From contig NZ_CP038143.1 in assembly GCF_006542375.1 (NCBI RefSeq), forward strand, positions 434,001 through 498,000: a stretch of 64,000 nt of DNA. The letters are read 5' to 3'. The notes below the pieces were generated by a model. The model was not told the origin of the DNA, made no database searches, and saw nothing but the letters and a program-made list of their open reading frames with translations. The stretch comes from Oecophyllibacter saccharovorans (lineage in GTDB: Bacteria; Pseudomonadota; Alphaproteobacteria; Acetobacterales; Acetobacteraceae). Below, one piece after another: positions 12,214 to 16,259 of the stretch (positions are counted from its first letter, which is position 1; each line of letters begins with the position of its first letter). Both the position numbers and the translations under genes were made by a program.

Positions 12214-14886
12214 TCAGCCTTTGACGACGAAATTGATGATGCGGCCCGGCACATAGATCTCCTTGACGATGGTTTTCCCCGCCAGTGCACGCGCAACGTT
12301 CGGCTCTGCCCGGGCCAGGGCCAGCACTTCATCACGCGGCAGGTCTGGCGGGCAGGAGATCGTGCCACGCAGTTTGCCCAGCACCTGCACGCCAAGCGTG
12401 ACGCTGGTCTGAGCCAGCAGGGCGTCCTGGGCCTCCGGCCAGGGGCGTTCAACCACCATGGGACCGTCCGGCTCCAGCACGGCCATCAGCTCTTCGCCCA
12501 GATGCGGCATCATCGGCGCAACCAGCTGCGCCAGCACGGTGGCTGCCTCACGGCGCGCAGCCGGCAGACCGTCGCCTTCCTTTTTCTCCGCCTCACCCAG
12601 CGCGGAAGCGAGCTCATGCAGGCGCGCCACAGCCACGTTGGGGCTGAAGCCTTCCAGCGCCTCGGTCACCGCGGCAATCGTGCGGTGCGTGGCACGGCGC
12701 AGCTCTTCGCCTGCCGGGCCGTGCGCGTTCTGCAGGCCGTCACGTTCCGCCACCGAACGCGTCAGGCGGTAGAGGCGCTGCATGAAACGCGCCGCTGCTG
12801 CCACGCCGGCTGCGGTCCACTCCATGTCACGCTCGGGCGGACTGTCGGAGAGGACAAACCAGCGCGCGGTATCAGCCCCGTAACGTTCGATGATCTCCAC
12901 GGGCGAAACGGTATTACGCTTTGATTTGGACATTTTCTCGGAACGCCCGACCCTGACAGGCGCGCCACTGTCCTTGCGCACGACTGTCCCGTCGCGCTTT
13001 TCGACCTCTTCCGGATAAAGCCACTGCTCACCGTCGCGGTAGCTTTCATGGGTGACCATCCCCTGCGTGAACAGCCCGCTGAAGGGTTCGTCCACATCGA
13101 CATGACCGGTTTCATGCATGGCACGCGTAAAGAAGCGCGCATAGAGAAGGTGCAGGATGGCATGCTCGATCCCGCCGATATACTGGTCAACGGGCAGCCA
13201 CCCATTGGCTGCGGCAGGCACGGTCGGCGTCGGTGCATGGGGGCTGGTGAAGCGTGCGAAATACCAGGAACTGTCCACAAAGGTATCGAACGTATCGGTT
13301 TCCCGGCGCGCAGGCTGGTCACATTGCGGGCAGGTGACGTGCTTCCAGGTCGGGTGGTGGTCAAGCGGATTGCCGGGCCGATCGAAGCTCACATCCTGGG
13401 GGAGTTCGACCGGCAGCTGATCTTCAGGTACCGGCACCGCCCCGCAGGTCTCACAGTAGATGATCGGGATCGGACAGCCCCAGTAACGCTGGCGGGAAAT
13501 GCCCCAGTCGCGCAGGCGCCAGTTGGTAACTGCCTCGCCGGCACCAAGCTCTTGCAGCCGTGCAATCGCCGCCTTACGCGCTTCCTTGGGCTTCATTCCA
13601 TCCAGAAAACTGGAATTGTAAAGCGTGACCGGGCCGGTCACGGCTTTATCCCCCACCTGGAAGGTCGCCGCATCCTCGCCCTTGGGCAAAAGCACCGAGG
13701 GAACAGGCAAATCATATTTCCGCGCAAAGTCCAGATCGCGCTGATCCCCGCACGGACAGGCGAACACGGCGCCCGTTCCGTATTCAGTCAGGACGAAATT
13801 GGCAATCCACACCGGCGCGGTCTGTTGGGGATTGAGCGGATTGGCCACGCGCAACCCCGTATCGAAGCCGCGCTTTTCAGCCGTGGCAACAGCTTCCTCC
13901 GAAGTGCCCATGCGGCGGCATTCCTCAGCGAAAGCGGCAATTTCCGGATTCGTTTCCGCCAGTTTCCGGGCCAGAGGATGGTCAGCAGCGATGCCGATGA
14001 AGCTCAGCCCGAACAACGTATCGGGGCGTGTCGTGAATATCTCGATATGCTGCCCTTCAGGCCCCAGCGCTGCCAGCTCGGCTGGGGGGGACTGCAACGG
14101 GAAACGGATTTTCGTGCCTTCAGATTTGCCGATCCAGCGTTCCTGCATGGTGCGAACACGTTCGGGCCAGCGTTCAAGATGTTTCAGGCCCTCAAGCAGG
14201 GGCTCGGCAAAATCCGTGATTTTCAGAAACCACTGCGAGAGAAGCCGCTTTTCGATCGGAGCACCTGAACGCCAGCCCCTGCCATCCACGACCTGCTCAT
14301 TGGCCAGAACGGTGTTGTCGACCGGGTCCCAGTTGACCGAAGCATCGCGTCGTTCCACCAGCCCTGCGCGCAGCATGTCGAGAAAGAGCTTCTGCTGCTG
14401 GCCGTAATACTCAGGCAGGCAGGTGGCGATCTCGCGCTTCCAGTCCAGCGAGAAGCCCAGGCGCTGCAAAGTTGTGCGCATGGCGGCAATGTTCTGCATG
14501 GTCCAGACGCCCGGATGCACGCCCCGCTCCCGCGCCGCGTTTTCCGCCGGCAGCCCGAAGGCATCCCATCCCATCGGATGCAGCACTGAAAAGCCGCGGG
14601 CCCGCTTGTAGCGCGCCACCACATCGCCCAGGGCGTAATTGCGCACATGGCCGACATGCAGCTGGCCGGAGGGATAAGGGAACATCTCCAGCACGTAATA
14701 TTTCGGCTTATCTGCTGGCGGCACGTCCGGCACGTCGAACACGCCGCTCTCAGCCCAGCGTTTCTGCCAGTAAGGCTCGCGCGCCTGGAAATCAAAGCTT
14801 TCCTGCTCCGCGCCCTGAGACTGCGGGGCCCCTGACTGTTTCAGCCCCTCCGGCACATGAGGGAACGAGGTAGAAGGCTTGCTCAT
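12214..14886 (-). CDS. leuS: Leucyl-tRNA synthetase
   Basis: About 890 residues, class Ia aminoacyl-tRNA synthetase that charges tRNA-Leu. HIGH-type motif [16 protein letters not shown]1 editing domain with [10 protein letters not shown], and KMSKS signature [10 protein letters not shown] are all present, followed by the anticodon-binding domain and the C-terminal LeuS domain ending [12 protein letters not shown]. The ATG for MSKPSTSF is preferred over one 15 bases upstream. First gene of the leuS-lptE-holA run. Confidence 0.97.
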
Positions 14887-15015
14887 AAAAACGCGTCGCA
14901 TCCGTCAGCGAAGGGAAAAACCGGAAACAGAGCAAACCGAAGACCATCTGTCCCTTCAGCCGCCAGGCGGCGGTCTTTCAGAAAGGGAAACGGTGCCTGC
15001 TCCGGAAAAGCGGGG

Positions 15016-15609
15016 TTATTTGCCGGCCTTGTTCTCAGCACGCAGCTGGCGAGCGCGTTCAAGAATGCGCGCCGTGATGTCAGACACGGTGGTGGGGGCT
15101 ACCGGCGTATCCTCCCACTCCCCGCTCTTTGTGCGCACCTGACGGAAAATCACCACCCGCAATGCATCGGAACGCAGCTGACGGTCCAGAATATAGGCGG
15201 CAATCTTGAACCGCTCTCCCTGCGTGCCCGGGGGTTCATACCAGTCGGTCAGGATCACGCCGCCCTGTGCGTCGGCAGAGGCCAGCGGCATGAAGGAAAG
15301 CGTGTCAATCGCGCCGCGCCACAGATAGGCATTCACCCCGCCGCGCAGCTGGTCACTGCCGCCCTGCGCGCCGCGGTCAATGCCGAGCAGGTGATTGCGC
15401 GGCTTGGTCAGGGAGGAAGGATCGCGCCCGCCGCCGCAGCCCTGCAGACTGCCCAGCACAACAGTGCTGAACAGAACCAGCCCCGCCAGACGCCCCACCT
15501 GCAGCAGGCTGCCACGCCATGACCCGACCTGCCGGTCCGGTGAGTGAAACGGAAGGAAGCGGGCCAGTCGGACCGGCGATTGCCGGAACATCAAAAACTG
15601 CTGAGACAT
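15016..15609 (-). CDS. DUF3576 lipoprotein
   Basis: 197 residues. A long basic N-terminus (about 35 residues) precedes a hydrophobic stretch and a lipobox-like LQGCGGG near residue 58. The conserved domain contains VNAYLWRGAIDTLSFMPLASADAQGGVILTDWY and VRTKSGEWEDTPVAPTTVSDIT-type motifs (quoted in part) of the alphaproteobacterial DUF3576 family, which commonly sits next to leuS. Function unknown; probably a periplasmic or outer-membrane-linked lipoprotein. A later start (for example near MFRQSP) is possible. Confidence 0.85.
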   Translation of the reverse strand: MSQQFLMFRQSPVRLARFLPFHSPDRQVGSWRGSLLQVGRLAGLVLFSTVVLGSLQGCGGGRDPSSLTKPRNHLLGIDRGAQGGSDQLRGGVNAYLWRGAIDTLSFMPLASADAQGGVILTDWYEPPGTQGERFKIAAYILDRQLRSDALRVVIFRQVRTKSGEWEDTPVAPTTVSDITARILERARQLRAENKAGK

Positions 15610-15834
15610 GAAAATCCTGAAAGGGCGTTTCTGCAGGGCCGTGCCAGGGCCGGTTCACGAAAGCGCTCCTGGCTGGCTGTCACCGGAGACGACTGGAAAG
15701 CCTGCCAACATATCGCGCTCCCCGCCACAGGCCAACCCGTCTTTGCCTGCTTGCAGGATATTAGCACCCACCCTGCATGAGCCCTCTTCTCTCTTGTCTG
15801 CAACAGGCGGGCAGGGTAGATACATTGGTCGTGT

Positions 15835-16199
15835 GTCCACGTAGCTCAGCTGGATAGAGCACAGGATTCCTAAATCAATTGGGCGCCGTGCGCGGGAAAC
15901 CGCCGTGGTGGATTCGCTCAAATTCGGGGAAAGCTCTGGCCTCCTGGCCGTGCCGATCCCGAGCCAAGCCGGTTCCCGCTCCGACCCTGCCAGATCTCTG
16001 GAAGAGTCGCCGGGATCCGGAAGGTGTAGAGACTGAACGGGCGACACCGTCCGGAGGAGGGTTCTCCTTCTCCACGGTGAAGAGACAGTCCAGACCACGA
16101 ACTTTCCGCCCCTGCCCTTCGGGCGCAAGTGGAAAGGCGGCGAAAGCCGAAGTGGCATGAATCCTGGGGTCGAGGGTTCGAATCCCCCCGTGGACACCA
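15835..16199 (+). tRNA. tRNA-Arg(CCT), split by a group I intron
   Basis: The mature tRNA is 15835-15871 joined to 16160-16199 (77 nt with encoded CCA). Acceptor GTCCACG pairs with CGTGGAC (before discriminator A and CCA). D-arm GCTC/GAGC; anticodon stem CAGGA/TCCTG with loop TTCCTAA giving anticodon CCT (codon AGG); T-arm GAGGG-TTCGAAT-CCCCC. Without removal of the 288-base insert the anticodon arm cannot form. A terminator follows at 16236. Standard tRNA finders may miss it because of the insert. Confidence 0.95.
15872..16159 (+). ncRNA. Group I intron (probably subgroup IC3) in the tRNA-Arg anticodon loop
   Basis: A 288-nt self-splicing ribozyme candidate. The 5' exon ends with U (15871); the intron ends with the omega-G at 16159. 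Guide sequence ATTGGG (15878-15883): GGG pairs with exon CCU (P1, with the U-G wobble), ATT pairs with exon AAU (P10). P3 TCGCTC (15914-15919) with GGGCGA (16039-16044); P7 GACTG (16031-16035) with CAGTC (16086-16090); P8 CACCGT (16045-16050) with ACGGTG (16074-16079); P9 CTTTCCGC with GTGGAAAG, capped by a TTCG loop, then a GGC-GAAA-GCC hairpin. Motifs TCAAATTCGG, GAGCCAAGC and GGTGTAGAGACT match the Azoarcus tRNA-Ile intron as I recall it. No homing endonuclease frame. Confidence 0.93.
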
Positions 16200-16235
16200 A
16201 AAAAGTTTCCAGAACAGTCCATATCAGTATGAGAC

Positions 16236-16259
16236 CCGCAGAAAACTGCGGATTTTTTG
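16236..16259 (+). terminator. Terminator of the tRNA-Arg transcript
   Basis: Stem CCGCAG/CTGCGG with an AAAA loop followed by ATTTTTTG, 37 bases after the tRNA CCA end. A simple rho-independent signal. Confidence 0.85.

Follow-up and report, generated by a model that had tools for sequence, protein, structure and literature searches.

Does the genome of Oecophyllibacter saccharovorans contain a gene for tRNA-Arg(CCT), and if so, what has been inserted into it? ARAGORN run without introns reports no tRNA at positions 15835-16199 of the window (the whole 64-kb stretch of DNA analysed here). When introns are permitted, it returns tRNA-Arg(cct) [15835,16199] with an intron of 288 nt. The gene lies on the forward strand, as do all the parts of it described below, and is interrupted after the anticodon by an insert at 15872-16159. 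The 5' exon (15835-15871) carries the 5' strand of the acceptor stem, the D arm and the 5' strand of the anticodon stem, and ends with the anticodon CCT itself. The 3' exon (16160-16199) supplies the 3' strand of the anticodon stem, the variable loop, the T arm, the 3' strand of the acceptor stem and the CCA. When the exons are joined, ARAGORN folds them into a normal 77-nt cloverleaf for tRNA-Arg(CCT), with an encoded CCA and a seven-base anticodon loop, TTCCTAA. The preliminary description of this DNA had proposed a tRNA-Arg(CCT) interrupted in the anticodon loop, whose halves fold once 288 bases are removed; ARAGORN gives the same coordinates, exact to the base. Because the gene is split, a plain tRNA scan misses the tRNA-Arg(CCT) of this genome, though it is present. 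tRNAscan-SE 2.0 is, according to the statement of its authors in PMC8450103, not designed for detecting such introns.

It is worth considering whether two nearby tRNA-like halves could simply flank an unrelated insert by chance. With the intron setting at 100-400 nt, no other gene in the 64 kb is called as split, and 20 random 64-kb sequences, generated with a first-order Markov model based on the window, gave no split-tRNA call. A further 71 genomes moreover have a homologous intron at precisely this site, a comparison that already refutes a chance arrangement, and we regard this reading as vanishingly improbable.

A terminator-like hairpin followed by a run of T (16236-16258, +) was found by a scan 37 bases past the tRNA, in a region where about one such site is expected by chance (mean 1.0). 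No sigma-70 promoter candidate for the split gene passes the scan. A TTGTCT-17-TAGATA arrangement is visible by eye upstream, at 15794-15822, and is not claimed here as a promoter.

The nature of the insert was addressed using the Rfam group I intron model, RF00028, and by comparison with a sample of 200 Acetobacteraceae genomes, the genome of the window included. The insert matches RF00028 at 15866-16101 with E 4e-8, and no other match in the 1.94-Mb genome reaches E <= 0.001; with the ARAGORN boundaries, and with 72 of the 200 genomes having an intron at this position, this identifies it as a group I intron. The Infernal check suggested earlier thus gives a significant match, but one of 37.6 bits, which does not reach the curated cut-off of RF00028, its gathering score of 50 bits. 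This value is a threshold for detection, not a feature of the biology, but a default Rfam run omits the window intron because of it. Across the sample, 48 genomes have a match to RF00028, ten of them above the cut-off. The relatives in Bartonella, Commensalibacter and Acetobacteraceae bacterium ESL0709 score 55.5-63 bits; the expectation that the proven Bartonella intron would also miss the cut-off was rejected, as it scores 63 bits. As an observation on search strategy, RF00028 with strict filters led to 37 of the 72 tRNA-Arg(CCT) introns, and the remainder were reached with a simple core pattern. Since the intron frequently falls below the Rfam cut-off, it is probably under-annotated in Acetobacteraceae.

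The splice sites of the window intron can be read directly. An internal guide sequence, AUUGGG (15878-15883), pairs through GGG with CCU of the 5' exon (P1) and through AUU with AAU of the 3' exon (P10). The U of CCU faces the first G of the guide GGG, forming a U.G pair at the 5' splice site, and the final base of the intron as delimited by ARAGORN is the omega-G (16159). Boundaries and guides were counted in 71 of the 72 introns, the window included and L167 left out. In all 71, the 5' exon ends in CCT, the intron ends in G and the 3' exon starts with AATCC, and all 71 have a guide of the form A[CT]TGGG (ATTGGG in 52, ACTGGG in 19). The omega-G and the pairing of the guide with both exons are present in the window intron as first described. 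The insertion just after CCT, the A[CT]TGGG guide and the AATCC 3' exon together place the window intron in the alphaproteobacterial tRNA-Arg(CCT) family. An ACTGGG guide would cost P10 one pair; many of the introns that have it begin TGT, where the window copy begins AAA.

For the remainder of the intron, a structure model of 91 pairs, from P2 to P9, was drawn on the window sequence, where all the pairs are standard by construction; P1 and P10 were read separately. The model draws the P3-P8 and P4-P6 domains, with the P3/P7 pseudoknot, that are expected of a group I core. It was then set against an alignment of the 72 tRNA-Arg(CCT) introns, which was not fitted to the model and in which L145, L167 and L170 were kept. 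On these 72 introns, 88.1% of 4997 cells are paired, compared to 32.3-45.2% for structures whose 3' partners were slid by 1-3 columns, a comparison that favours the unslid version because the model was drawn on one row of the alignment. Cells changed on both sides number 601, against a mean of 210.5 in 500 shuffles, and for each of five measures 0 of the 500 shuffles reached the observed value, although kinship among the sequences can by itself push values above shuffles.

The helices differ in how well they are supported by the relatives. P2 is a hairpin capped by a GAAA tetraloop (15884-15910; helix 1 of the model), with 85.1% of cells paired and changes on both sides in 8 of its 11 pairs, the base of the hairpin being poorly kept. 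P3 is formed by UCGCUC (15914-15919) and GGGCGA (16039-16044); this helix (helix 2) is paired in 100% of cells, with double changes in three of six pairs. P4 (15923-15928 with 15958-15963) encloses P5 (15933-15953), the two together spanning 15923-15963. In P4, 91.0% of cells are paired and four of the six pairs are invariant, while the outermost pair, U.G, is poorly kept, being unpaired in 38 of the 72 introns; P5 has double changes in seven of seven pairs. P6 and its extension P6a-e occupy 15964-16024 (helices 5-7). Two P6 pairs are paired in every cell and P6a-b show changes on both sides. The distal helix (helix 7, ten pairs) has letters in only one of the 72 rows, that of the window copy, and is therefore without support from covariation.

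The guanosine-binding site of a group I intron is laid out as a bulged base beside a G-C pair in P7. In the window intron, P7 is formed by GAGACUG (16029-16035) and CAGUCC (16086-16091), and provides a bulged A16030 and a G16031-C16090 pair, which with the omega-G at 16159 form the predicted site. P7 is paired in 100% of cells with six of six pairs invariant (helix 8), so that P7, like the two invariant P6 pairs, is uninformative on covariation. P8 and its distal extension (16045-16079; helix 9) are paired in 68.2% of cells overall; the four outermost pairs are kept in all rows that have letters there, and the distal part is poorly kept. P8 is followed by J8/7, AAGAGA (16080-16085). The P9 domain (16095-16155) comprises P9, P9.1 (16102-16136) and P9.2 (16138-16149, with a GAAA loop). 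Helices 10, 11 and 14 of this domain are paired in 99.7, 91.3 and 100% of cells, P9.2 being the fully paired one, and P9, P9.1 and P9.2 all show changes on both sides; the inner P9.1 hairpin (helices 12-13), at 50%, is poorly kept. For P9.0, beside the omega-G, inspection by eye shows no more than A16092-U16158. The P3, P7, P8 and P9 helices named in the preliminary description can thus all be drawn with standard pairs and are mostly supported by the relatives. Single-strand folding of the window intron gives a z-score of -3.27; the minimum-energy fold misses part of the core, and the P3/P7 pseudoknot cannot be drawn by that method.

The size differences of the window intron are peripheral. 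Lengths were tabulated for 69 of the 72 introns, leaving out L145 and L170, which contain runs of N, and L167, which was mis-cut (its true length is 236). Only one of these 69 is longer than the window intron, which has 288 nt against a median of 236. Its P6 segment is the longest (55 against a median of 22), its P9 the second longest (68 against 53) and its P3-P8-J8/7 segment the sixth (42 against 35). P2 is also the second longest, but within a narrow range (32; range 29-33), and P5 (24 against 26) and P1 (13 against 15) are slightly short. The earlier statement that the extra length lies mainly in P6 and P9 therefore holds to the extent that both are long compared to the 69 relatives, but the P8 segment is somewhat enlarged too.

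Such an unusual length, together with the low Rfam score, might indicate a decayed intron that no longer splices. The tRNA-Arg(CCT) gene would then be dead, and AGG codons would be read by a tRNA with the anticodon UCU, which can read AGG by wobble; a tRNA-Arg(tct) gene does exist in this genome. Against this, the family-invariant positions of the core, the P7 pocket, the guide and the omega-G are all intact in the window copy, and both exons are intact and complementary. Decay is thus very unlikely, and an intron that is still spliced is the reading followed below.

The distribution of the intron gives information on its history. An intron in tRNA-Arg(CCT), confirmed by both exons, is present in 72 of the 200 genomes, and the uninterrupted site in 61, of which 58 have the standard junction and three a variant stem. 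No genome of the 200 has both intron and uninterrupted site, the three variant-stem genomes giving no match to the core pattern. The remaining 67 genomes were scored neither way, and could contain other variants or gaps, or lack the gene altogether. The core pattern with one mismatch tolerated is found in 90 of the 200 genomes and its reversed control in seven, so part of the 90 must be due to chance. The loci fetched for comparison were the places given by the core pattern and by RF00028; L001 (a duplicate of the window locus) and L003 (another tRNA) were dropped from the early set.

A further 29 fetched loci lie in other tRNAs or are unassigned. In 23 of these, ARAGORN makes a split-tRNA call of another kind, for example Asn(GTT), Thr(GGT) or Leu(TAA), with the same intron core (L004, L012, L013, L025, L026, L037, L041, L044, L045, L047-L049, L051, L150, L156, L159-L161, L163, L165, L177, L180 and L181). 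Several of the labels at these non-CCT loci (Phe, Ile, His) appear to be mistaken, and by eye some of the joints read as Leu(TAA). Ten genomes (G009, G017, G020, G024, G075, G078, G107, G111, G162 and G180) have at least two core-pattern places with one mismatch tolerated, and several of them have split tRNA genes of two kinds.

Is the intron then an old resident of this gene, or is it still mobile, or did it arrive recently from a different lineage? Of the 34 genera with at least two scored genomes, 17 have the intron throughout, 13 have only empty sites and four are mixed. This test used the 58 genomes with a standard empty site and left out the three with a variant stem. When the labels were shuffled, 22.4 genera were mixed on average, with a minimum of 13 in 2000 shuffles, so that 30 uniform genera out of 34 argue against mobility or recent arrival, while the four mixed genera speak in favour. 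The intron tree, as read from the drawing, can be used on both sides: copies from the same genus are often together (for example g33, g41, g43, g47, g55, g57, g61, g62 and g73), but those of g18, g31, g64 and g101 do not group, as might follow from transfer.

The neighbouring genes bear on the same question. The split tRNA is adjoined by a DUF3576 gene (15016-15609, -), identified by Pfam scan, and beyond it lies a gene at 12214-14901 (-) which we take, from recognition of the sequence rather than from a family search, to encode leucyl-tRNA synthetase (LeuRS). A DUF3576 homologue is found at ten other intron-bearing tRNA-Arg(CCT) loci, representing nine genomes because one place was fetched twice, as L009 and L122; seven of the ten have LeuRS as well. 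The flank searched was about 1.5 kb or less for most loci, so the absence of DUF3576 or LeuRS elsewhere means little. The shared neighbours, which count against mobility, suggest descent in place within one clade. Trees of LeuRS and of the intron for eight taxa agree in some groupings and differ in others; the Commensalibacter copy, for example, is placed differently in the two, which would fit transfer, but eight loci are too few for this comparison to separate vertical from horizontal descent.

A homing intron would be expected to contain an endonuclease gene. The preliminary description saw none, in agreement with the Pfam scan, which gave no match at E 0.001, to an endonuclease or any other protein, for the ORFs at 15879-16160 (+) and 15655-16200 (-) that cross the intron. 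The scan covered these two ORFs, one per strand; a further ORF at 15875-16222 (-) overlaps them. The plasmid and phage records matched at E 0.01 do not match the intron: the six records of each kind all match 35-40 bases of the 5' exon, extending at most three bases beyond it. Seven viral contigs have the core pattern. According to ARAGORN, four of these carry a tRNA-Arg(CCT) with the intron, one has a tRNA-His(atg) call, a label that also fell on four CCT introns, and two have no call. The four count in favour of movement. On these contigs (L191, L192, L195 and L196), the split tRNA-Arg(CCT) lies at most about 1.7 kb from a contig end, and could be host sequence beside a prophage.

Horizontal transmission has been argued in the literature for this alpha-purple intron family, in the title of Paquin, Heinfling and Shub (1999), as given in the reference list of PMC7717549. 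For the window intron, continued mobility or recent arrival nevertheless seems unlikely given the observations above, and the intron is best read as an old passenger, mostly vertically inherited.

Related introns have been described before. PMC7717549 reports that BbgpI, a group I intron in the tRNA-Arg(CCU) of Bartonella bacilliformis, self-splices in vitro and is spliced in vivo, and it cites Paquin et al. (1999) for an alphaproteobacterial family that includes a tRNA-Arg(CCU) intron of Agrobacterium tumefaciens, which by that description has the same tRNA and belongs to the same family as the window intron. The occurrence of such introns in alphaproteobacteria, which had been noted in the preliminary description, is therefore documented. 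The window intron is another case of this known family, which, along with the self-splicing of one member, has been published (PMC7717549). We compared it with the copy of B. bacilliformis Ver097 (L125), a strain that may differ from the one studied in that paper. The two share the tRNA, the insertion site, the guide ATTGGG and the core stretch used for searching, and are 66% identical (152 of 230 aligned bases); the Bartonella intron, of 230 nt rather than 288, lacks most of the extra sequence in P6, P8 and P9.1. The introns of Commensalibacter intestini A911 (L116, 231 nt) and Acetobacteraceae bacterium ESL0709 (L122, a place also fetched as L009, 233 nt) likewise have the same tRNA, site and core stretch. 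Both of these loci have the DUF3576 gene, and LeuRS is seen in L116 and L009. In the ESL0709 copy, which was aligned as L009, there is no distal P6 extension.

When named genomes were scanned for a 21-base core stretch of the window, 41 loci were found, of which 36 have Bartonella in their title; the scan may omit the record of the window itself. The intron is in tRNA-Arg(CCT) at 36 of the 41 loci (34 Bartonella, Commensalibacter and ESL0709); of the others, three are in other tRNAs and two have no call, the match being at the end of the locus. Our literature search gave, among the matches listed, no paper on a tRNA-Arg(CCT) group I intron in acetic acid bacteria. Among introns in other tRNAs, that of the Azoarcus tRNA-Ile also interrupts the anticodon loop, and has a compact core, GNRA loops in L2 and L9 and a length of about 205 nt. 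The core of the window intron may resemble it, as the preliminary description stated, although the tRNA is different. The Azoarcus tRNA-Ile group I intron is named in PMC3984707.

Sequence and structure together establish the gene structure, the helices, the position of the splice sites and membership of the family. Splicing is experimental for Bartonella bacilliformis (PMC7717549), and by family analogy we infer for the window intron self-splicing, the two-step reaction and its efficiency in the organism. Transcription of the tRNA-Arg(CCT) gene would carry along the 288-nt intron directly after the anticodon, and the intron would fold into a bacterial tRNA-type ribozyme, presumably IC3-like. 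Through P1 and P10, the guide AUUGGG would hold both exons. A guanosine from outside, bound in P7, would then attack after the U of CCU, and the freed 3' OH of CCU would attack after the omega-G at 16159, so that the exons are joined to give a normal 77-nt tRNA. We consider it almost certain that this locus is a split tRNA-Arg(CCT) gene whose group I intron is spliced by the group I reaction and is mostly a vertical passenger.

No second tRNA-Arg(CCT) was found among 42 tRNA matches in the ARAGORN reading of the genome, in which the other tRNA-Arg genes have the anticodons tct (L059/L062), ccg and acg. When the whole split gene was searched against the genome DNA, the matches were its own locus and, apart from that, just 22 bases of a different tRNA. 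The list of tRNAs is not fully complete, because tRNA-Ile(gat) and tRNA-Ala(tgc) are missing from it; these two usually lie within rRNA operons, and the search or the assembly may be incomplete there. With no other tRNA-Arg(CCT) found, splicing would be the sole source of tRNA-Arg(CCU). It might be imagined that, in this lineage with its longest P6 domain of the sample, splicing efficiency sets the supply of AGG-reading tRNA and thereby controls translation, for example in response to guanosine or to a protein that binds the extra helix, but we think this very improbable. The window intron leaves the general knowledge of group I introns unchanged; the survey of 200 genomes should help annotation work and research on how introns are gained and lost.
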